From Paulownia fortunei (lineage: Eukaryota; Streptophyta; Magnoliopsida; Lamiales; Paulowniaceae), in contig CM033108.1 of assembly GCA_019321725.1 (NCBI GenBank), forward strand, positions 21,725,472 to 21,789,471: a stretch of DNA of 64,000 bases, written 5' to 3'. Numbering within the stretch: the first letter of the stretch is position 1; every line of letters begins with the position of its first letter. Below are positions 935-20,030 of this stretch, piece after piece. The notes beneath the pieces were generated by a model. The model was not told the origin of the DNA and made no database searches. It saw only the letters and a list, made by a program, of their open reading frames with translations. Both the position numbers and the translations under genes were made by a program.

Positions 935-2547
935 TGATAAGTGCATATTTTGACATATTTTTATATCAAATTCTTTATACTTTTCTTGCTTTATTCTTGT
1001 TAATATTCTTGTTTTATTAATGTTTTGTGTTAGGGAATAAATGGAAGCATGTTTTTAGACTTGTGCAGTTTTTGTAATTTGAGCATAACTTCATGATCAA
1101 AAGCTCTATAGACCTGAAGCTTATTTCATTTGAAAGCCAAGAGATAGAGGTACAACTTTTATGTTGGAGGCTTAGCCCAATTCAGTTTTGATGATAGCAT
1201 AAAATTCGTCCAAGTAATTACACAAAATGGATCACCAAAATTCGGATCAGAGTTCAGCCCAATATTGACTTATTTTACCAATTCGGTTATATATCTTGAG
1301 CCCAAATTTATTTTGGTCTGAAATTAGGATATGTTATATCCAAGAGGTAAATAAACAAGTTTTCTGAAGACAAGATGGTGTGAAAATGTGTCGAAATGGT
1401 AAAACTATAGGCTGCAAGTTGCTGCTGATGTTACAGGGCGGCTCTTGGACATGACTCGGTAATTTGACCATATCTCCTTCATCCGACCGCCAAATTTGAC
1501 AAAAGATATATTAAAATATATCCGAGCTGAAAGATATACAATTTTGATTCTTCACATATCTTCAAAATCTGGCTGTATCTGACCAAAAAATGTAATTCAA
1601 TTCAGTAGATGAGAAATTTGTGTAACAACTTACCAACTTTTGGCAACTAGCATGCCACTTGATTAACCTCTCCATTATTTTTTTGGCCTCTAGCTTACTC
1701 CAAGTACTATAAATAGGCCATGTATTAAGCTTGTAAGAGGAGGGGGAAAAAGGGTTTCTTTAGGCTAAGTTATCTAGTTTGTATGTTTTCTAGTATTGTA
1801 AGTTTTCTAGTAGTAATAGAAATGCATTCTCTAGTTTCTCTTACATTTTTAGTCTTTGTTACTTTTATTATGTCTTTCTAAATTTCATTTTGTTGAGGAA
1901 AAATGGTGAATCTCTTGATGGAGGAAGAGAAATGATTATAAGGGTAGAAATTGTTTAAGTATGTTGTATTATTATTTTTATTTTTGGTCTAAACCCTACT
2001 TGTTTTTGTGGTGATTCTTGATTTATGTATCTCCAATGGTACAACAAATACTTGGGTTCATTTAGCTTATTGTACGGTTTTACCCCATCGACTGCTAATG
2101 TGAAACCTTGATTTGTTGTTGACGAAGGAGTACATAAATGCTTGATCCCATAAATAAGTGTTGGCGTTAAGAGATAATTTGCAATAGTAAGACAATATCA
2201 TGATTACCTTATTGCATGAGTTATTTGATAATATCTTCCCATTGAAACCTTCATTATGTATGGATTCCAATTGTGGCAATTAATAGAGGTAAAAAAATAA
2301 ATAAACATTTCTCTATCCAAAACTCAAGAGTAGATCCCTAATCCTCAGTACTTTTATTACTTTGGTTTTTTCTTTAGTTACATCATACATTAATTGTTCA
2401 TATATTTTGATTCACATAAACTCCATCTTTTTATAAATATAAACTTGAATTCTTCAAACAACTTCCCTGTGGATCGACCTCGGACTCACGAGAAATTTAT
2501 TACTTACTACAACCTGCACTTGGGTTTGCAACCTTAAAGTTGTAGCA
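935..2547 (+). repeat. 5' LTR of the Athila element
   Basis: The LTR runs from TGATAAG at 935 to a terminal CA at about 2547, a few bases before the primer-binding site. Its first 493 bases match 11370-11862 without net length change. The exact 3' boundary is inferred from the TG...CA rule and primer-site position, because the corresponding part of the 3' LTR is missing. Confidence 0.85.
1707..1717 (+). promoter_or_regulatory. LTR TATA box
   Basis: CTATAAATAGG lies inside the LTR in the position of the U3 promoter. A purine-rich, then T-rich stretch about 30 bases further on is compatible with transcription start. Inferred from consensus only. Confidence 0.6.
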
Positions 2548-2553
2548 AGTTTT

Positions 2554-2570
2554 TGGTGCCGTTGCCGGGA
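2554..2570 (+). other. Primer-binding site, tRNA-Asp type
   Basis: TGGTGCCGTTGCCGGGA differs at one position from the reverse complement of the plant tRNA-Asp 3' end (TGGCGCCGTTGCCGGGG) over the first sixteen bases. This primer is usual for Athila-type gypsy elements. The C-to-T change may be deamination damage. Confidence 0.85.
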
Positions 2571-2644
2571 AGGCAAGGTAAGTATTCAGGTTTGTTAATA
2601 TTTTTCCTTTGTAAATATAGTTTGTTTATTTTCTTTATGGATAT

Positions 2645-3629
2645 ATGGTTATATGGTATCGTAGTCATAATTCTCGACGTTTAGTAAGAAATAATTCCGA
2701 AACTTTGTTTGAAAATTTGTTTGAATCATCTCCACACACTTCCACCATGGCTGAAAATGAAAGTGTCCAGGATGAAAATGAGAATCAACAGGTGCGTACC
2801 ATGCGTTATTACTTGCAACCTCCTCGAAATTCTTCTCCTTCTTGTTTCATTTTTCCTCTAAATGCAAACAATTTTCGATTCAAGTCAGGTATGATCCCTT
2901 TACTTCCTAATTTCCATGGTTTAGACTCTGAAAGCCCTTACTTGCATTTAAAAGAATTTGATAAAGTATGTGCCACTTTTGATGATCAAACTTGCACAAA
3001 TGAGATTGTTAAGCTCAAATTATTTCCTTTTTCTTTAAAAGATAAAGCAAAAAATTGGCTTAATTCTTTTAACCTAGGTCAATTGGCACTTGGCAAGAAA
3101 TGCAAGCTGAATTCTTGAAAAAATTCTTTCCAACTCATAAAACTAATGCTTTGAAAAGACAAATTCAAAATTTTTCTCAAAATTCGAATGAAGTTTTCTT
3201 TCAATGTTGGGAAAGATTTAAAGATTTGTTGAATTCATGCCCACATCATGGTTTTGAAAAATGGCGCTTAATTAGTTTCTTTTATGAAGGTTTAACTCCT
3301 GAAACAAAACAATTTGTTGAAACAATGTGTAATGGTGAGTTTCTTGATAAGGAATCTGATGAAGCTCTAGAATATCTAGATCATTTGGCAGAAAACTCTC
3401 AATCATGGCATAGTGTTAATTCTTCCGAAGGTTCTATTAGATCTAATCTTGCTAATAGTAATAAAGAAAAATATTACCTTAGTCCAGAAGATGATCTAAA
3501 TGCTAGGCTTGCTAGTTTAACAAGAAAAGTTGAAGCCATGGAACTTAAAAAGTAAAGGAAATCAAATCTGTACAAGAGGAAGAAGTTTGTAGCAATTGTG
3601 AAATTTTGGGGCACTCCACCAATGAATGT
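2645..3629 (+). pseudogene. Athila gag (capsid-like region and zinc knuckle), frameshifted
   Basis: Gag would form the retrotransposon capsid and package its RNA. The first frame (2645-3118) contains the conserved stretch around FKSGMIPLLPNFHGLDSE and the run KLKLFPFSLKDKAKNWLNS. The frame then slips near 3100-3118 and continues to 3555 through FEKWRLISFFYEGLTPETKQ. A further frame change leads to a CCHC knuckle, CSNCEILGHSTNEC, at 3588-3629, which keeps the C-x2-C-x4-H-x4-C spacing. At least two frameshifts make it non-functional as a continuous protein. A degraded linker reaches the protease near 4218. Confidence 0.85.
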
Positions 3630-4217
3630 CCAAACATTCCAGTACAAGAAAATTTTATGAACACATTCAAAAACCTTTTCATTCTCCATATTCTGAAACT
3701 TACAATCCACAATGGAGAAATCATCCCAATTTCAGTTGGCGAGATGATAACCGTGCCCAACCACTGCATTCACAAAAACCATAAAACTTTCATTCTTATC
3801 CACCTCCACATACAAAATCCATTGAGGAGACTTTGCAAGCATTTATGCATGAACAAACAAACATCAATAATCAGACTTCACAAGCTATCAATGAGATCAG
3901 AAGCACACTTTCAACACTGACAACTTCTTTGCGTACTCATGAAAAAGGTAAATTCCTGCTCAACCTCAACCTAATCCTTCTACTCAGTGTCATGTTTCTT
4001 CTTCAGGTGAAAATGCAGTCAAGGAGGCTAATTCAGTTACAACTCTTCGGAATGGAAAAGTTGTTGACAAGACTATTCATCCCAAGGAGAAAGTTTCTAA
4101 TCCACCTCCAGAAATGAAAAATGGAAATAGTCTTGACGATGAAGGTAAGTTTGAAGAAGGTAATGTGAAAATGATGAAAAAACAAAAATATTACCTCCAG
4201 CACCCTTTCCTCAAAGA

Positions 4218-5122
4218 TTGCAAACAACTCAGAAATTGAACTCAAATGCTGAAATTTATGAAATTTTTAAACAAGTCAAGATTAATATTCCATTATTGGA
4301 TGCAATCAAGCAAGTTCCACCTTATGCCAAATTTTTGAAAGATTTGTGTACAATCAAAAGAAAACATCATGTACAAAAGAAGGCATTTTTAACTGAAAGT
4401 GTTAGTTCAATCATTCAACAATTCACTCCACCCAAGTACAAAGATCCAGGTTGTCCAACCATTTCATGTATCATAGGAAACACTAGAATAGAGCGTGCTT
4501 TGCTTGATCTTGGTGCTAGTGTAAATCTTCTACCTTTCTCAGTTTATGAACAGTTAGGTTTGGGAGAACTTAAAACAACTTCTGTTGTACTCCAACTAGC
4601 TGACCGTTCGATTAAAGTTCCAAAGGGAATAGTAGAAGATGTGTTGGTACAAATTGATAAGTTTTACTTTCCAGTTGATTTCATTATTTTGGACACAGAG
4701 CCTGTTGCACAAACACATACACAAATTCCTATCATTTTGGGTCGTCCTTTTCTTGCAACTTCAAATGCTTTGATCAATTGTAGAAATGGTATTTTGAAGT
4801 TATCATTTGGAAATATGACTTTGGAACTAATGTGTTTAATGTTTGTATGCAACCTGCAGAAGATGTCGAAGTACATGAAGTGGATTCAATTGAGGAACTT
4901 GTTCATGAATACTTTACTACTTCTAACTCTTCAGATTCTTTGGAGACTTGTTTTGAAAGTGAAAGTATTTATAAAAAGGAACAAACTAATACTATCTCTG
5001 AATTTTTGCAGGTACAAGAAAAATATTTTTGGAAGCCAAGGTTCGAAGAACTTTCATCATCAACAGTAAAATCTATTCCATCAAGTATTAAAGCTCCCGT
5101 GGTTGAATTGAAACTTTGCTAA
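4218..5122 (+). pseudogene. Athila aspartic protease region
   Basis: The open frame 4218-5069 carries a retropepsin-like domain around residues 90-190. It contains DLGASVNLLP, where the catalytic triplet reads D-L-G as commonly seen in Athila elements, then LQLADRSIKVPKGIVEDVLV and the closing motif IPIILGRPFLAT. After about 4825 the Athila-like sequence continues in another frame (4832-5122, acidic and Ser/Thr-rich), so there is a frameshift just after the protease. The protease would process the Gag-Pol precursor. Confidence 0.85.
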
Positions 5123-5188
5123 GTTAATTTGAAATACTCTTCTTGGGTGAGAATGAGACTTTTCCAGTAATAATTTCTTCCAAACTCG

Positions 5189-6588
5189 ATGCATCAAGAA
5201 GGTAAGTTGATCGAAACTCTGAAAATGCATAAGAATGCTTTAGGATGGACCATTGCTGATATTAAAGGTATTAATCCTTTTATTTGCACACATAACATCT
5301 ATCTAGAGGAAAATATTAAACCTTCTAGAGAAATGCAACGAAGGCTAAATCCTAATATGAAAGAAGTAGTGAGAAATGAAGTCATTAAACTCTTAGATAA
5401 TGGAATCATTTATTCTATTTCTGATAGCAAATGGGTAAGTCCTACTCAAGTTGTACCTAAGAAATATGGAGTTACTGTAGTCAAGAATGAGAATGATGAA
5501 TTAATTCCAACTAGGACTGTTACTGGTTGGCGAATGTGCATTGACTATAAAAAACTCAACTCAGTTACTAGAAAAGATCATTTTCCATTACTTTCATGGA
5601 TCAAATTTTAGAAAGAGTTGCGGGACACAAATTTTATTGCTTTTTAGATGGATATTCTGGATATAATCAAATTGCAATTGCACTTGAAGATCAAGAGAAA
5701 ACAACTTTTACATGTCCTTTTGGTACTTTTGCATATCGAAGATGCCTTTTGGATTATGTAATGCACCAGCTACATTCCAACGATGCATGCTTAGTATTTT
5801 TAGTGACATGGTTGAACGTTTTCTTGAAGTCTTCATGGATGATTTTTCTATTTTTGGTAATTCATTTGATGATTGCTTATCTAATTTAGAAAATTTTGAT
5901 CAGGTGTGAAGAAAAGAATCTTGTGCTCAATTGGGAGAAATGTCACTTCATGGTAACAACTGGTATTGTTCTTGGACACATTATATCATCAGAAGGTATT
6001 GAGGTTGATAAATCTAAAATTGAGTTAATTGCCAATTTGCCAACACCAAAGACTGTGAAGGAGATTAGATCATTTTTAGGACATGCTGGTTTTTATAGAA
6101 GATTTATCAAAGATTTTAGTATAATATCTAAACCTTTGTGTAATCTTCTAACAAAAGACACTATTTTTGAATGGACTGAAAACTGTGAAAATGCTTTTGT
6201 TAAGCTTAAAAGCATGCTTATGTCTGCTCCAATCATGCAGCCTCCAGATTGGACTTTACCTTTTGAAATAATGTGTGATGCTAGTGATTATGCTGTTGGA
6301 GCTGTCTTGGGACAAAGAAAAGATAAAAAACCATATGTTATTTACTATGCAAGTAAAACTTTAAATGGTGCTCAATTGAATTATACAACAACTGAAAAAG
6401 AATTACTTGATGTAGTTTTTGCATTGGATAAATTTCGATCTTATCTTGTTGGCTCACCAATTGTTGTTTTCAGTGATCATGCAGCTTTGAAATATCTTTT
6501 TTCAAAAAAAGATGCTAATCCAAGACTGATTAGGTGGATTCTCTTACTCCAGGAATTTAATTTACTATTCGAAATAAAAAGAGAGTAG
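5189..6588 (+). pseudogene. Athila reverse transcriptase and RNase H, frameshifted
   Basis: The palm begins in 5189-5611 (WRMCIDYKKLNSVTRKDHFP), slips to 5596-5760 (FYCFLDGYSGYNQI), then to 5712-5909, where the active site reads VFMDDFSIFG. The thumb and RNase H domains follow in 5896-6588 with [33 protein letters not shown] and [11 protein letters not shown], which hold acidic catalytic positions. Three reading frames are needed to follow one polypeptide, so at least two single-base indels have accumulated. The YSGYNQI and FMDDFS signatures favour Athila over chromovirus or Tat RT. Confidence 0.9.
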
Positions 6589-6699
6589 AGAATGTAGTGG
6601 CTGATCATTTGTCGAGACTTGTTTGTGATGACTCATTTCAAACCACACCTATTAATGACACTTTCCCTGATGAACAATTATTTAATGTTTCTATTTTAC

Positions 6700-7950
6700 A
6701 TGGTTTGCTGACATTGTTAATTTTCATTTTCTTGTGACAGGAAAGATGCCATCGCATTGGAACTCTCAAGACAAAAAGAAGTTTTTGACTGAGGTTAATT
6801 TTTTATTGGGATGATCCATACCTATTCAAATATTGTCCGGATCAAATCTTTCGAAGATGTGTGCCTGACAATGAGATAGGTAATATTGTCAAATTTTGTC
6901 ATTCAGAAGCATGTGGTGGTCATTTTCTCTGTAAAGAAATCTACTGCAAAAATCTTGCAATGTGGATTTTATTAGCCAACTCTTTTCAAAGATACTTACA
7001 CTTTCTGCAAAATTGTGAAAATTGTCAAAAGTTAGGGTCATTTTCAAAAGAAATATGATGCCCCTACACCTATCCTAGTGATTGAAATCTTTGACTGTTG
7101 GGGTATTGATTTTATGGTCCATTTCCATTATCATTTGGTTTTCTTTACATATTGGTTGCCATAGATTATGTTTCAAAATGGATCGAGGCAATTCCTTGTC
7201 GAAACAATGAACACAAAATAGTGATAAAATTTTTGAAAGAAAATATTTTAAGTCGATTTGGAATTCCTAGATCTATTATCAGTGATGGGGGAAAACATTT
7301 TTGTAACAAAGTTTTCGGAACTTTAATGAAGAAATATGGAATCATACATAAAGTTGCAACCCTTATCACCCTCAGACAAATGGACAAGTTGAACTTGCAA
7401 ATAGGAAGATAAAATAAATTTTGGAGAAAACAGTTAACCCAAACCGTAAAGATTGGTCTCTTAGACTTACCGATACACTTTGGGCATACAGAACTACTTT
7501 CAAAAATCATTAGGCATGTCTCCTTATAGGATAGTTTATGGAAAACCTTTTCATTTACCTGTTGAATTTGAACATAAAGCTTATTGGGCAATCAAAATGT
7601 TTAACTTCAACCTTGATGAAGCTTCAAAATTGCGCAAATTGCAAATCAATGAACTTCAAGAACTGAGAAATGATGCATATGAGAATTCTAAAATTATAAA
7701 TCAAGAATCAAAGATTTTCATGATAATAAAATTTCAAGAAAAATATTTGAGGTTGGTAAAAAGGTTTTGCTTTATAATTCTCGATTGCATTTTTTCTTGG
7801 AAAATTGAGATCAAGGTGGAGTGGTCCTTTTGTTGTAAAAAAATATATCCTTATGGGGCAATTGACATTGAAAATCCTAGAAATGGTAAATATTAAAGTA
7901 AATGGACAAAGAGTAAAACCATTTCTAGAAAATCAATTTTTACAAGAGGA
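6700..7950 (+). pseudogene. Athila integrase, frameshifted
   Basis: The N-terminal zinc-binding module is in 6861-7058 (HSEACGGHF followed by CENCQKLG). The catalytic core is in 7152-7412, with the first Asp in AIDYVSKWIEAIP and the second in IISDGGKHF. The expected third acidic position (GQVEL-type sequence) is found near 7378 in a shifted frame. A C-terminal region follows at 7480-7896, containing MSPYRIVYGKPFHLPVE. Stops and frameshifts separate these pieces. Integrase would insert the element cDNA into the genome. Confidence 0.85.
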
Positions 7951-8091
7951 AAATCTTTTTCTTTCTAACCCTTGTTATGATTAGTGTTGTATATACTCAT
8001 TCTCTGATATTATTTATTTATTTATTTTTTCTTCTTCTTCTTTTATTTTTTTCTTTTTCCGGTTAAATGGCGGATAACGGTACTCCGTGGC

Positions 8092-8099
8092 TATAAAAG
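8092..8099 (+). promoter_or_regulatory. Possible internal TATA box ahead of the extra ORF cassette
   Basis: TATAAAAG follows a short GC-richer stretch (about 8060-8090) immediately after the pol region. It lies about 93 bases before the ATG at 8185, with a C/T-rich, leader-like sequence between. The arrangement looks like a compact plant core promoter and 5' UTR rather than retrotransposon pol sequence. Function is inferred from pattern only. Confidence 0.4.
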
Positions 8100-8184: not shown

Positions 8185-8752
8185 ATGGGTGACATTTTTC
8201 TAACTCTCAAGAAGCGATTTTCTTTTCTTCCTAAAAATACAATTTTGAAAATTTATAAAATTAGGATTGAAAGATTGAGGATGCTTATGCACAAGGGCAT
8301 TCCGGAGGACATACGATGGATAATTGAAGCAAAGGTAAGGGCAGGTGAGTTTTCACATGAGTTTCCAGATTTGCTTACTAGATACATGTTTGGTTTTGGT
8401 AAAAGCACATATTCAAAAAACAAAGGGCGAAAAAAATGAAAGTTTGTCATATTTGTGCTAGATGGACTTGCAATACAAAGTGTCGTTCTTTAGGATGGTT
8501 TCTAAAAATCGAGAAGATAAACTTAAATTCATTATGGATGAACTGAGTAACGAGTCTTTAGATCATATTATATTGACTCTTGAGACGCATTCATGTGGAT
8601 TGGTACAACGTGCAATTCTTGATTTATGGGATCATTTTCGAAATGAATGTGAGCTTTATAGTCTTGGGAATCTGACATTAAAAAGACCCTGTTTGCCAGT
8701 TTATAAGAAAACTGGATGGGAAGCATATCCTCGACCCATAGAGGGCGTTTAA
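8185..8752 (+). pseudogene. Unknown ORF with a Cys-rich motif, position of Athila env-like gene
   Basis: I do not recognise this protein. The first frame starts at 8185 (MGDIFLTLKKRFSFLP) and ends at 8439 after a Lys/Arg-rich tail. A second frame starting at 8436 reads into CHICARWTCNTKC (C-x2-C-x5-C-x3-C), then the sequence continues in a third frame to 8752 through VSKNREDKLKFIMDELSNES and a Trp-containing stretch. Together they would make roughly 190 residues with two frameshifts: basic N-part, possible zinc-binding middle, acidic/hydrophobic C-part. There is no hydrophobic segment long enough to suggest an envelope protein. It sits between integrase and the LOG-like sequence, downstream of the possible TATA box. 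Confidence 0.45.
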
Positions 8753-8984: not shown

Positions 8985-9632
8985 ATGGAAGTTTTTCAAC
9001 TCGCAAATTTAATTCCATTTGTGTTTTTGTGGATCCAATCTAGAAAAAAATGGTGAGTTTATAGGGGCAGCCAATAACCTTGGTAGAACTTTAGCAGAAA
9101 TAAAAATTCATTTAGTGTATGGGGGAGGCAGTTTGGGGTTAATGGGTGTGCTATTTCTGCTTATGTAGGAGGTGTCAAAGTTCTGGGAGTTATCCCAAAA
9201 TCTTTAACAGTACAGAATATCACAGGTATGACCATTGGAGATGAGATAAAAGTGTCACACATTTAGGACAGAATGCCTAATATGTTAAACAATGCGGATG
9301 CATTCATCATTCTACCTGGCGGTTTTGGTACACTGGAGGAATTATTCCAAATTGTCTCTTGGGCACAACTCAACATTCACCAAAAATCTATAGGTATTCT
9401 TAATGTTAATGGTTTTTATGATGGTTTGCTATCTTTTGTAGATCATGCTGCGAAAAAAGGGTTTATTTCAACTTCTGCGAGAAGAATCATCATTTCTGCT
9501 CCGACACCTGACCAACTGATTGATCAACTTCTAGCATATGTGTCAAAACCTGATCCAGCCTTGGCTAATGTGGATTGGTCCAACAGGAACAATGGTCGAA
9601 AACGCAAATTGAAATTGACTCTCAGTCTGTGA
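8985..9632 (+). pseudogene. LOG-like cytokinin riboside 5'-monophosphate phosphoribohydrolase carried in the Athila element
   Basis: LOG enzymes release active cytokinin bases from their nucleotides. The domain is readable end to end: ICVF at 9017-9028, CGSN and AANNLGRTLAEIKIHLVYGGG at about 9029-9126, SLGLMG, VKVLGVIPKSL, then an intact 119-codon frame (9273-9632) with NADAFIILPGGFGTLEEL, which contains the family motif PGGxGTxxE, plus SWAQLNIHQK, GILNVNGFYDGLLSF and SARRIIISAPT. The C-terminus has a basic tail (GRKRKLKLTLSL), as in the divergent LOGL10-like subgroup as I remember it. Breaks: one base missing in a T run near 9025, one missing near 9148, and an in-frame TAG at 9264-9266 where a CAG codon is expected. 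There are no introns, whereas plant LOG genes normally have several, so this is probably a retro-captured copy. Cellular activity of this copy is unlikely. Confidence 0.85.
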
Positions 9633-11353
9633 TACTTATTGTTAATGATTTTATCTAATAGTATGTGTGTTTTTTTGTTGTTTCAGCTTTATTAACCGCA
9701 TTTCAGGTGATATCTTTCAAACTTTACTTTCCTATCTATTTTTGACATTGGGGACAATGTCTCGATTAGGTTTGGGGGAGGGATAATTGATATCATGATT
9801 TGTATATTCAATGTGTGTTTTTCTAGTATTTAAAAAAAATAAATAAAAAAAATAATAAATATAAATCAAGCGTGTTTTTTTTATGGGCCCGTTGAAATCA
9901 TGAAAAAAAAGGTGGCTGAGTAAAGGGTAATTGTAACACTCTTGAGACGCATCCCTATTTTTTGCATAACATGGCAGGTTTGTAAAGTTTTTAATAAATG
10001 TTTGTGAATTACCAATTTTTTTTATTTTTTATTTAGTCGTATAGGTTCTTCCAACTTCAATGATTAAAATTAAAGCATGATAATATGGTTTGATTGATGA
10101 TGGGTGTTGTTTTGGACTTTGATGTTGTTATTTGGTTAATATATTTTTGCGATAATTATACTCAAATTTTATTTTGCACAAATAGTTATGTTATTTAGTG
10201 TGAAGACAATCATGTCAAAATAGATAGTTCTTATGCCCTTGCTCTAATCATCACTTGAATCTTCAACATGTAGGGGTTGAGTATTAGAACTTTTACTTTT
10301 GGTCTGTCGAGGCGAACAATTGATAGTGCACCACTAGAAAATGATTAAGGCATTAGGATTTCTAGCACCATTGCCAAATCAGCTTGTTCCCTATATGATG
10401 TTTCAAGAAAACATCCCCTAGTAAACCACTTTGAGCCTTACAATAAATAATATTTTTTTTTTGTAGCCATATCTTTTTACCTAGCCTAAATACACTATTA
10501 TCAACTCTTGTTCTAAAAATGATTGGAGTTTAAGAGACATTCAATTGACAGCTTGAACTTACAAAAGAAATTCAGGTTGGAATAGAAGATAAGTGTGGGG
10601 GAGTTTCTCTTAAAAAAGAAAAAAACAATAAAAAAAAAGAAAAAAAAGTTGCAAAGTGCTACAAGTTGCAACTAAAAATGAGATGTTGCAAGATGAATAA
10701 GAGGGGTCCAATTCAATAACAATAGACTCCAGTGTGAAATTTGTGGAGTTGGAGAATTCTTCATCGATAAATTTTATGTCTCTAATTCCATGAAGTTTTT
10801 AGAACCTTTGTTGCTTCCTATCCTTTTATTTCTTAGCTACATCACCACCCTTTGCCCATTACAACCTTTGTTGAAGACCTTTTGATTTCATGTGGTGCTT
10901 CAGTGTAGTGGAGATTTGCACCAAAGGAAGAGCCTATGATGTTTAACTTTTATGTTAGAGATTGGGTGATGGTTTTTGTAAGGTTTTATGAGAATTCACT
11001 TATTTAAAACATGCATAGTTTCATCACTATTGACATTAACTGTCCACACACAACACTTGAGTATGATTATTGTGGAAATGTATTGATTTTTGAATGACTA
11101 AGAGTTAAACTCAACACTTGTTTGATTTTATTTCCATATTACTTTGTTGCTTCATGAGAATAAAAGTTGGAAGATAGTTATTATAGGTGTTTGTAGGTAT
11201 CACTGCTGGAAACCTTCACGAGACTACAACTCGTCCTCTATGGGCCACCTAGGGGTTTAAAGGCTTGTTGCATATGCTAAATGCAATCGTGATTTCCTAC
11301 GAAAGTGGATTAGTTTATGTTTGTTTTAAGCTTGCTCGAGGACAAGCAAGGGT
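9633..11353 (+). other. Athila 3' non-coding region with two extra polypurine-like motifs
   Basis: No convincing protein frame is present. At 9744-9761 a perfect 7-bp hairpin (GACATTG, loop GGGA, CAATGTC) precedes AGGTTTGGGGGAGGGA (9768-9783). A second G-run motif, AAGTGTGGGGGAG, is at 10591-10603. Both resemble the true polypurine tract at 11354. A stretch with a GCTTG/CAAGC stem at about 11330-11348 precedes the final tract. The arrangement suggests duplicated or shifted 3' end modules. A-rich runs lie near 9830-9860 and 10610-10650. Confidence 0.6.
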
Positions 11354-11369
11354 TAAGTGTGGGGGAATT
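11354..11369 (+). other. Polypurine tract of the Athila element
   Basis: TAAGTGTGGGGGAATT directly precedes the 3' LTR start TGATAAG at 11370. This is the usual primer site for plus-strand cDNA synthesis. Confidence 0.85.
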
Positions 11370-11862
11370 TGATAAGTGCATATTTTGACATATTTTTATA
11401 TCAAATCCTTTATACTTTTCTTGCTTTATTCTTGTTAATATTCTTGTTTTATTAATGTTTTGTGTTAGGGAATAAATGGAAGCATATTTTCAGACTTGTG
11501 CAGTTTTTGTAATTTGAGCATAACTTCATGATCCAAAGCTCCATGGACCTGATGCTTATTTCATTTGAAAGCCAAGAGATAGAGGTACAACTTTTATGTT
11601 GGAGACTCAACCTAATTCAGTCTTGATGATAGCAGAATATTCGTCCAAGTAATTACACAAAATGGATCACCAAAATTCGAATCAGAGTTCAGCCCAGTAT
11701 TGACTTATTTTACCAATTCGGTTATATATCTTGAGCCCAAATTTATTTTGGTTTGAAATTAGAATATTTTATACCCAAGAGGTAAATAAACAAGTTTTCT
11801 GAAGACAAGATGGTGTGAAAATGTGTCAAAATGGTAAAACTATAGGCTGCAAGTTGCTGCTG
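11370..11862 (+). repeat. 3' LTR of the Athila element, truncated by an assembly gap
   Basis: These 493 bases match the start of the 5' LTR (935-1427) with about 21 differences by hand count and no net indel. The remaining ~1.1 kb of the LTR is absent: the sequence enters the N run at GCTGCTG, and the sequence after the gap is not LTR. Confidence 0.9.
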
Positions 11863-11962
11863 NNNNNNNNNNNNNNNNNNNNNNNNNNNNNNNNNNNNNN
11901 NNNNNNNNNNNNNNNNNNNNNNNNNNNNNNNNNNNNNNNNNNNNNNNNNNNNNNNNNNNNNN
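11863..11962. other. 100-base assembly gap
   Basis: Exactly 100 N. This is a conventional placeholder for a gap of unknown size, so distances across it are unreliable. The gap begins inside the 3' LTR, consistent with assembly failure between near-identical repeats. Confidence 0.98.
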
Positions 11963-17370: not shown

Positions 17371-20030
17371 TCAATTGTTAGCAACTCCAATCAAGTACAT
17401 GTAATGTTTGAACTTAAACTTCAGAAGAGGCTTAGTCAACATACTTGCAGGATTCTCCTGAGTAGAAACCTTCTTCAGTAAGATATCATCCCACGCAATA
17501 ATATCAGCGTGCTTAGTTCTTTCATGAAACATCTTATCTTTAGTCAAATGAATAACACTTTGACTATCACAGAAAATGGTGGTCCTAAGCTCTCCATACA
17601 AGCCTCTTAGCCAAATTCGTTCTTTAATCACCTCTATTACTATAATATATTATGCTTCTGTCATTGATAATGCAACTACGTATTGCAATGAAGCTTTTCA
17701 GCTTACTGCACTTCCTCCAAGAGTGAATACATAGCGCATGTGAGTGATCTTCTTTTATCAAGATCATCAACATAATCATAGTCAACACAACTAACTAGAG
17801 AATTATTATTCCAGCCAAACTCCAATCAAGCTTCTAAAGCATCAAGCAAATATTCTCAAGATCTATTTCATAGTATTCTAGTATGTTTTTTTTCTGGGAC
17901 AAGACATATATCTACTAACCACACTAACAATATGTGAAATGTCTGGACGCGTACAAACCATAGCATACATAATGCTACCAACTAGTTTAACATTTTTTAT
18001 GCCAAACCTCTCCAAGACTTTCTCAATATAACTCTTTTGAGTCAAATACAACTTTCACATCTTTCATCACTTTTGATTTTCGTGTTAAGGATCTTTTTCG
18101 CTGCACCAAGATCCTTCATCTTGAACTCTTTATTCAATTGCCTATTTAACTCATCAATATATGATATATTTTTAGCTGCAATCAACATGTCAACAACATA
18201 AAGAAAAATAAATAAATAAATGAGCCATTATTAATCTAACGAAAATAGAAAAACTATGATAACTGTTGCTACCAACCATAAAGAAAACAAATATTTTGTA
18301 CCACTGTCTCGGAGGCTATTTCAAATTGTATAATAATTTCTTTAATAAGCAAACATGGTATTCTTTTCCTTCAACAAAAAAATCATCTGGTTGTTGCATG
18401 TAAATTTGTTCTTCTAGCTCACCATGCAAGAATGTAGTTTTAACATCAAGCTATTCCAACTCCAAATCATGCATAGCAACTAATGCAAGCAAGATACGAA
18501 CAGAAGTATATTTCACGGCAGCTAAGAAAATATCATTAAAATCTACATCTAATACCTAACTGTAGCCTTTAGATATTAACCATGTCTTGAACTTTGCCTT
18601 TTCAATACTAGGGATTCTTTCATTCCTTTTAAAGATCCACTTACAACCATCAATCCTCTGCCTAGCTGGTAACTTCACAAGTACCCAAGTATTATTTTTG
18701 TGAAGAGACTCAATTTCTTTTACATAGAAATTAACCACTTCGTGGAATCAATGGAAGAAAAAGATTCAGATTATATAGATGGTTCCCCAATAGAATTTAT
18801 TTCTTCTCCAACTGACAAGGCATATGCAACAAGATCTGCATATCTCTGTTGCGGTCTAATTTCTCTTCTTGGTCTATCTTTAACAATGCTTTGTTGCTCC
18901 TTAGGAGATGTTTCTTCAATAGTATCAGACTCTTCTTTTGAAAAAATTTATGGAACAGTAGGATTTTGAGACACCATTGATGGCCTAGTAATGCACTACA
19001 TGTCTCATATGTATCCGAAGAAATTACATACTCTTTTTTCAGGATTAGTTGAGCAAAATCATCAAATATAAGATCTCTACTAATAACAAATTTAGGTGAC
19101 TTAGGATCAAGACATAACAACATATATCCTTTCACCCTTGAAGCATAACCAAGAAAAATACATCTCTTAGCTCTAGGCTCCAATTTTCCTTCATTGACAT
19201 GCATATAAGCAGGATACCCAAAAATTCTTAAATTTGAGTAATGAGCAGGTTTGTTAAAGTATACCTCTTCAAGAGTGTTGAACTCTATCATAGTCGACGG
19301 TGAGCGATTCACTAGAAAATAAGTTGTGGAAGCTGTTTCAGCCAAAAATCCTTGGACAAACTAGCATTAGAAGACAGATAGTGAGACAATCCCTTGAGCT
19401 TCGCAAAACTTATTAAAATCCCTCCGTAAAATTCTAAACCATTATTTGTCCAGAGTCTTTTAATATGTGTTCTAGTCTGTTTCTCAATCAAAGTCTTCCA
19501 CTTTCTAAAAGTATCTTGTATCTTTAGAAAATACATCCAGACTTTTATTGAAAAGTTATCAATGAAAATCAATAAATATCGAGCTCCTTCTTTTGATAGA
19601 ATTGGTGACGGGTCCCAAAGATCAGAGTGAATATAATCCAAAGAACCTTGAGTTATATGAATTCAAGTTCGAAAGTTGAGCCTCCGTTGTTCAAGTCCCA
19701 AAGTTGAGCCTCCACTGTTTTCCAGACACATAATGCTCACAAAAATCCATATCTCCAGTATTTTGGCCACAAAGAAGTCCTCATTTACTAAACAAGGTAA
19801 GAACTTTTTCACTCATATGCCATAATTTTGTAATATCAGTATCAAACATAAATATTGAACAAATTACTGCATAACCTGTAATCGTGGAGCCTTGTAACAC
19901 ATATAGACAGCCAACATTTCTAGCTTTTATCACAACCAACACACTTTTGCTGACTCTCAATACTCCACCTTTGGCTAAAATTTTGCACCCCTCCAAATAA
20001 CTCGAACTAATGATCAACTAGGATATAGGT
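17371..20030 (-). pseudogene. Tork-like copia pol 3' half: pre-integrase, integrase, RT, RNase H
   Basis: Reading down the minus strand: a GAG-pre-integrase segment (20017-19781, GGVLRVSK and LYVLQGST), integrase core (19641-19312), integrase C-region (19345-18797, FGYPAYMHVNEGKLEPRAKR and FLGYASRVKGYML), RT start (18738-18556, NNTWVLVKLPARQRIDGCKW), a more decayed RT body, and the RNase H end (17631-17371, KHADIIAWDDILLKK). The second catalytic Asp of integrase is Asn in LWTNNGLEF. The RT box near 18190 reads YVVD instead of YVDD. Frameshifts separate the pieces. Confidence 0.85.

Follow-up and report, generated by a model that had tools for sequence, protein, structure and literature searches.

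A LOG-derived gene with an altered pocket beside a CRP-like reading frame in a probable Athila-type retrotransposon of Paulownia fortunei

The stretch of DNA analyzed here (the window: 64,000 nucleotides of Paulownia fortunei, assembly GCA_019321725.1, contig CM033108.1, positions 21,725,472 to 21,789,471 of the forward strand) holds a long terminal repeat (LTR) retrotransposon in which a sequence of the LOG family, known for cytokinin-activating enzymes, lies between the integrase and the 3' LTR. This LOG capture has probably changed its biochemical role, and it stands beside a second accessory open reading frame (ORF) resembling the cysteine-rich, nucleic-acid-binding protein (CRP) of carlaviruses. 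The LOG-like sequence and its tail are placed as follows.

8985..9632 (+): LOG-like ORF, first half broken, open from 9267; profile and structure-sequence matches
9582..9632 (+): codons of a basic LxLxL tail (RKRKLKLTLSL) and stop; sequence and family comparison

The open frame at 9267-9629 (+) encodes 121 amino acids that match Pfam PF03641 (E 2e-29, 102.9 bits against a cut-off of 27), with Arabidopsis LOG3 (PDB 2a33, E 2.9e-31) as the nearest solved structure, and the LOG reading continues upstream through 8985-9266 in other frames. A 161-aa read-through query of this region matched 3828 of 3891 candidate proteins at E <= 1e-10, and the match is therefore not due to chance. Measured against an intact relative, P0001, whose residue numbering is used below, the damage amounts to three frame changes and one TAG; a previous reading of this DNA from its letters alone (the sequence-only reading) was right about the TAG and had counted only two frameshifts. 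Its placement of the LOG-like sequence between integrase and 3' polypurine tract is confirmed, as the sequence lies on the same strand as gag, protease, RNase H and integrase core, 3' of all four, and 5' of the purine-rich stretch and of the 3' LTR, which starts at 11370. The host element consists of the following parts.

935..2547 (+): 5' LTR; start set by the repeat, a CA directly before the primer site taken as its end
2554..2570 (+): primer binding site, tRNA-Asp type; 2 mismatches, 1 match against 0 in 100 shuffles
2621..3555 (+): gag, split into overlapping frames; Retrotrans_gag in 3073-3552, E 3e-17
4164..5069 (+): protease region; Asp_protease_2, E 5.4e-6
5174..6588 (+): weak reverse transcriptase match and RNase H, frames disrupted; RVT_1 18.7 bits, below the cut-off of 29.6; RT_RNaseH E 1.1e-36
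7110..7893 (+): integrase region, broken; rve E 1.8e-13 in 7110-7412
11350..11369 (+): purine-rich stretch 5' of the 3' LTR; sequence
11370..11862 (+): 3' LTR, interrupted by an N gap; LTR repeat

The two LTRs are 95.74% identical over 493 nt (935-1427 against 11370-11862), which at an assumed rate of 1.3e-8 substitutions per site and year would mean insertion about 1.7 million years ago; a 100-N assembly gap at 11863-11962 cuts the 3' LTR. We take the primer site to be complementary to tRNA-Asp. The RNase H match occupies 5890-6588 (+), and the rest of the integrase region, 7465-7893, gave no significant profile match. As gag, pol, the CRP-like ORF and LOG all carry frame changes, this copy of the element is dead. 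Athila elements (Ty3/gypsy, OTA) are recognized by LTRs, a non-Met tRNA primer site, the order protease, reverse transcriptase, RNase H, integrase and the lack of an aRH, and their ORF-1 domain, PF03078, occurs in 16% of them and is thus optional (PMC6317226). The LTRs, the tRNA-Asp-type primer site and the domain order are all seen here, the reverse transcriptase match being weak; no second RNase H appeared among the scanned ORFs of the element, with 6589-7109 lying outside that scan, and PF03078 had no match in the 14 ORF pieces (13 different stretches) scanned. The LOG-carrying element is probably of the Athila type of Ty3/gypsy, as the sequence-only reading had it. Antisense within gag, 3146-3254 (-) matches the plant C/D snoRNA snoR71 of Rfam at 42.6 bits (cut-off 40), which may be chance or captured sequence.

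The 648-base LOG region was used to search the P. fortunei genome (509 Mb), where 40 near-full-length places, that of the window included, share 96-100% identity (40 of 2306 candidates scored). The 39 others were taken with about 2.5 kb of flank per side, and all contain LOG, accompanied by a same-strand upstream integrase in 37, a CRP-like piece in 38 and a same-strand LTR-start piece downstream in 37. Two copies lack integrase, one of them also the CRP-like piece, one lacks the LTR piece, and one has it on the opposite strand; the order integrase, CRP-like, LOG, 3' LTR is fixed in this genome. For the converse comparison, 40 integrase hits were collected, of which 13 (window included) occupy the same positions as LOG copies; ten of the other 27 were examined, eight being from the low-similarity end, and every one has LOG where it was expected, once as a partial copy. 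The suggestion that sister copies be searched for LOG between integrase and 3' LTR, and that some might lack it, has thus been followed in Paulownia, and none without LOG was found among the 39 and the ten. The same order in 37 of 39 other copies indicates that LOG was present before the window's copy inserted, and together with relatives in other plant orders these counts bear out what had been advanced as an inference, that LOG is a feature of the family. A neutral single capture is ruled out by the 40 copies, the order kept among the 39 others (integrase and LTR in 37 each) and the LOG in ten of ten integrase-picked elements. The idea that a cellular LOG locus sits by chance between unrelated repeats hardly merits belief for the same reasons and is refuted for the Paulownia genome: the window's frame is 96-98% identical to Paulownia proteins of transposable-element type (TE-type), and identity between P0001 and its closest cellular LOGs is about 50%. 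With a cellular LOG3 as query, the 150 candidates scored out of 3356 all matched in a single frame and at nearly full length, with 44-53% identity; a genuine cellular LOG of Paulownia was not identified among them.

The TE-type set used for all comparisons below is the best 120 of the 3828 proteins matching the read-through query. Within it, intact LOGs of 215-221 aa are found in Paulownia (94-98% identity), Rehmannia (about 63-71%), and Orobanche and Reevesia (about 53-63%), some records representing 244 or 328 member sequences. Several from Rehmannia, and P0087 of Orobanche minor, bear cytokinin-enzyme names in public records. The comparison with cellular LOGs that the sequence-only reading had asked for was made in a tree with 33 TE-type rows, consisting of the window's sequence and 32 from the set of 120, alongside 34 cellular rows drawn from 120 and 12 prokaryotic ones drawn from 80. 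TE-type LOGs form one group (support 100/99, stem 0.51) beside a cellular group (100/99); the Lamiales rows cluster (100/99) and Reevesia is separate (100/100), a split that would be expected from vertical descent and might also reflect transfer. Derivation of the LOG part from the cellular LOG family, as previously supposed, is supported: the best TE-LOG score is 224 bits against plant cellular LOGs and 177 against 17 prokaryotic LOGs. A bacterial or viral donor was considered and ruled out, with plant cellular LOGs nearer by these scores and the TE-type and cellular rows standing apart from the 12 prokaryotic ones (98/87). Viral contigs yielded 28 LOG loci at no more than 52% identity over short segments, and to judge from contig type and low identity these are not plant elements; plasmids gave three weak LOG matches.

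Membership in the LOG family is clear, since all six TE-type proteins scanned pass TIGR00730 (165.6-181.7 against a cut-off of 96.35). The cut-off of NF058542 was reached by none of these six and by neither of the two Arabidopsis-type LOGs scanned, and because both kinds miss it alike, this profile does not decide on activity. The catalytic residues are largely kept in the TE-type set, with R98 in 104 of 120, E121 in 116 and both in 100, and the exact glycine-rich loop PGGxGTxxE is present in 94 of 120, compared with 114 of 120 cellular LOGs. The pocket is another matter. In the LOG of Corynebacterium glutamicum (CgLOG), the adenine/prenyl pocket is formed by Met96, His97, Lys100, Glu125 and Trp129, with Lys100 on the adenine and prenyl sides and Glu125 on the prenyl side, and alanine mutants of a pocket and catalytic set that includes Lys100 almost lost phosphoribohydrolase activity, assayed with AMP as substrate (PMC4979012, from which the equivalent positions were mapped). 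At K99 (CgLOG Lys100), lysine is found in one of 120 TE-type proteins, with isoleucine in 59 and methionine in 57, and at E124 (CgLOG Glu125) glutamate is found in none, with glutamine in 86, histidine in 29 and asparagine also seen. M95 is retained in 76, H96 in 65 and W128 in 91 of 120. All five residues are invariant in the 120 cellular LOGs, and the 80 prokaryotic LOGs have the lysine, the glutamate and the tryptophan in 80 and the histidine in 79.

The TE-type LOGs therefore appear to lack the pocket by which a cytokinin-activating LOG would be recognized, and their ordinary cytokinin activation is doubtful because they have replaced a lysine and a glutamate that every one of the 120 cellular and 80 prokaryotic LOGs retains. 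The label "cytokinin-activating" given to this sequence earlier is not supported, given replacements in 119 and 120 of 120 proteins, despite the kept catalytic Arg and Glu. It could still be proposed that the element bears a working LOG and gains from more free cytokinin, for example through cells kept dividing, in line with the retention of Arg98, Glu121 and the glycine-rich loop, the predicted LOG fold and the TIGR00730 result. Given the loss of Lys99 and Glu124, the incomplete retention of His96 and Trp128, and the near inactivity on AMP of CgLOG mutants of the set containing this lysine, we consider this rather unlikely. A different proposal takes the same pattern, in which phosphoribosyl-binding and catalytic residues are kept and the base/prenyl side is changed, as that of a sponge or hydrolase for nucleotide immune signals such as TIR-made ADP-ribose derivatives; SLOG domains of bacterial defence systems bind signals of the ADP-ribose type, and we give this proposal a small chance.

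The C terminus also departs from that of cellular LOGs. Of the 120 TE-type proteins, 85 have LxLxL in their final 15 residues and 109 a basic cluster in their final 20; among 120 cellular proteins the numbers are none and one, and cellular tails are unlike the TE-type tail in sequence. An AlphaFold2 model of P0001 built from 36 sequences (pLDDT 84.2, pTM 0.82; residues 202-212 and 215-217 below 50) predicts a LOG fold whose core is ordered and whose tail is loose. With LxLxL as the pattern of an EAR motif, and with the nuclear localization signal (NLS) in its usual definition, the tail may represent a putative NLS and an EAR-like motif. In comparison with plant cellular LOG3 and LOG8, the TE-borne LOG is thus alike in fold, catalytic Arg/Glu, glycine loop and length, and differs in K99 to I/M, E124 to Q/H/N and the new basic LxLxL tail.

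Selection on the LOG frame was estimated by NG86 counting, which ignores transition bias. The coding frame gave a ratio of 0.34 in the 17 open close copies and 0.35 in all 39, as against 0.64-1.26 in the other LOG frames, 0.55-1.13 in noncoding and 0.48-1.24 in integrase frames. For LOG ORFs of 217 codons the ratio was 0.33 (0.21-0.55) in 16 close copies and 0.54 (0.42-0.74) in all 28 together. The index of nonsynonymous to synonymous variants (N:S), relative to a spectrum-matched neutral expectation, falls from 1.09 for singletons through 0.82 for variants in two or three copies to 0.50 for the 26 variants in at least four copies; a separate count gave 51N:20S:1 stop for singletons (expected 51.7:17.1:3.2) and 23N:15S for shared variants (expected 26.4:10.1:1.6). 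Such a gradient would fit neutral decay after insertion combined with constraint in the lineage that still transposes. If LOG were a neutral passenger, persisting since copying of the elements outpaces its decay, the neutrality of the singletons would be accounted for, as would the lack of an open LOG frame of at least 210 aa in 22 of the 39 copies (17 have one) and in all ten integrase-picked copies. The constraint on the older shared variants is a point against this explanation, and the stronger argument is that full-length proteins with shared catalytic residues and tail persist at about 60% identity between Lamiales and Malvales; the passenger explanation accordingly seems improbable to us.

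The sequence-only reading missed a second accessory ORF. This ORF and a motif before it are located upstream of LOG.

8185..8752 (+): CRP/NABP-like ORF, with a frame change in the window's copy; relatives, and PF01623 in open copies
8091..8099 (+): TATA-box-like CTATAAAAG, about 90 nt 5' of the CRP-like ATG

The window's pieces of this ORF had no Pfam match on their own, and the piece 8462-8749 has 21 relatives. Nine database relatives were scanned, four exceeding the cut-off of PF01623 (carlavirus nucleic-acid-binding protein, NABP) and two that of PF05515. An open CRP-like ORF of 185-194 aa is kept in 12 of the 39 Paulownia copies, and the six naturally open ones of 185 aa that were scanned all pass the curated PF01623 cut-off (25.1-25.6 against 20.9 bits), with none reaching that of PF05515. 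As in the carlavirus proteins, a basic stretch precedes a Cys cluster; the ORF differs from them in sitting in an LTR retrotransposon and in its weak score. CTATAAAAG is present in 36 of the 37 copies holding that region, and a promoter role before the CRP-like ORF may be supposed. Suppression of RNA silencing is known for CRPs of viruses; the CRP of chrysanthemum virus B is a transcription factor that causes hyperplasia, and the carlavirus CRP p12 induces hyperplasia (PMC12172455), an effect that would also suit a working cytokinin-activating LOG next door. In two relatives, P0129 and P0139, apparently deletion derivatives, an integrase H2C2 zinc finger is fused with the C-terminal half of a CRP-like protein, which ties this ORF to integrase outside the window as well. 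At an A run in its C terminus (about 8680-8752), two alternative frame endings recur among relatives, perhaps from slippage or repeated indels.

Elsewhere in the window, 34416-56597 contains direct repeats 72-85% identical (e.g. 34416-36569/53655-55795 and 37676-40473/50234-52896), perhaps more old elements or a duplicated block, and frames at 17371-19662 (-) resemble a decayed Ty1/copia polyprotein, judged from translations only.

A LOG domain inside plant Gypsy elements is already known, so the kind of host gene capture pointed out by the sequence-only reading is not a novelty. YgdH/LOG domains were described in consensuses of LTR elements (Ty3/gypsy) from Citrus sinensis and C. clementina, and with a looser filter from Populus trichocarpa (Alvarado-Marchena 2022, PMC9289625, citing Steinbauerova 2011). 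These and the Paulownia element alike are plant Gypsy elements with an extra LOG-family domain; the passages of that account dealing with the domain say nothing of a pocket change or a tail, give no tree, describe no virus-like ORF nearby and do not name Lamiales or Malvales for it. A literature search found no report of the pocket change, LxLxL tail or CRP-like neighbour of a TE-borne LOG. Gypsy elements of Phalaenopsis, with an AlkB-type demethylase ORF, likewise represent a plant lineage fixing a host-type enzyme ORF, and differ in enzyme, in host and in that in vitro activity was shown there (PMC9289625).

When these results are placed together, it can be proposed that a single, ancient capture brought a cellular LOG gene into an Athila-type lineage, which has since retained LOG as an accessory ORF, together with a CRP-like one, in the interval from integrase to 3' LTR. 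The TE-borne LOG would still bind a 5'-phosphoribosyl nucleotide, with conversion of cytokinin ribotide to free cytokinin no longer its main reaction; its tail may direct it to the nucleus, where LxLxL, if kept, could bind TOPLESS-type co-repressors. The CRP-like protein may dampen RNA silencing or alter transcription, and both proteins together would favour the element's expression or spread. We lean, by a narrow measure, toward the general form of this proposal, in which an old LOG capture with an altered role and the CRP-like ORF beside it make up a 3' accessory cassette directed at the host. The specific form is a more tentative possibility: a two-gene host-manipulation cassette, pairing a virus-type silencing suppressor or transcription factor with a LOG that works in the nucleus, recruits co-repressors and hydrolyses or binds a new nucleotide substrate, kept long as help against silencing or immunity.

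Several observations weigh against the proposal. The constraint signal inside Paulownia is modest: the 217-codon LOG ORFs of 12 older copies, selected for absence of stops and low similarity to cellular LOG, gave a ratio of 0.78 (0.65-1.00), one noncoding frame is as low as 0.55-0.59, and integrase frames lie at 0.48-0.81 except one at 1.24. One TE-type protein, P0110, retains the pocket lysine, and LxLxL is absent from the Orobanche tails listed. The cellular sample is limited to LOG1/3/4 and LOG8 types. Genomic context comes from Paulownia only; for other species, "TE-type" stands for similarity, copy number and tail. Finally, the CRP homology is weak, at 25 bits and with the PF05515 cut-off missed in the Paulownia ORFs.

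Plant LTR retrotransposons are usually viewed as gag-pol copies that passively evade the host. As dozens of copies hold a LOG with changed pocket and tail beside a virus-like ORF, our analysis points away from a single accidental event and toward a kit that would act on the host. The changes in pocket and tail lend themselves to specific, cheap tests, and TE-borne copies under cytokinin-enzyme names can inflate LOG gene counts. If the proposal is true, plant LTR retrotransposons would carry selected, effector-like genes as viruses do.
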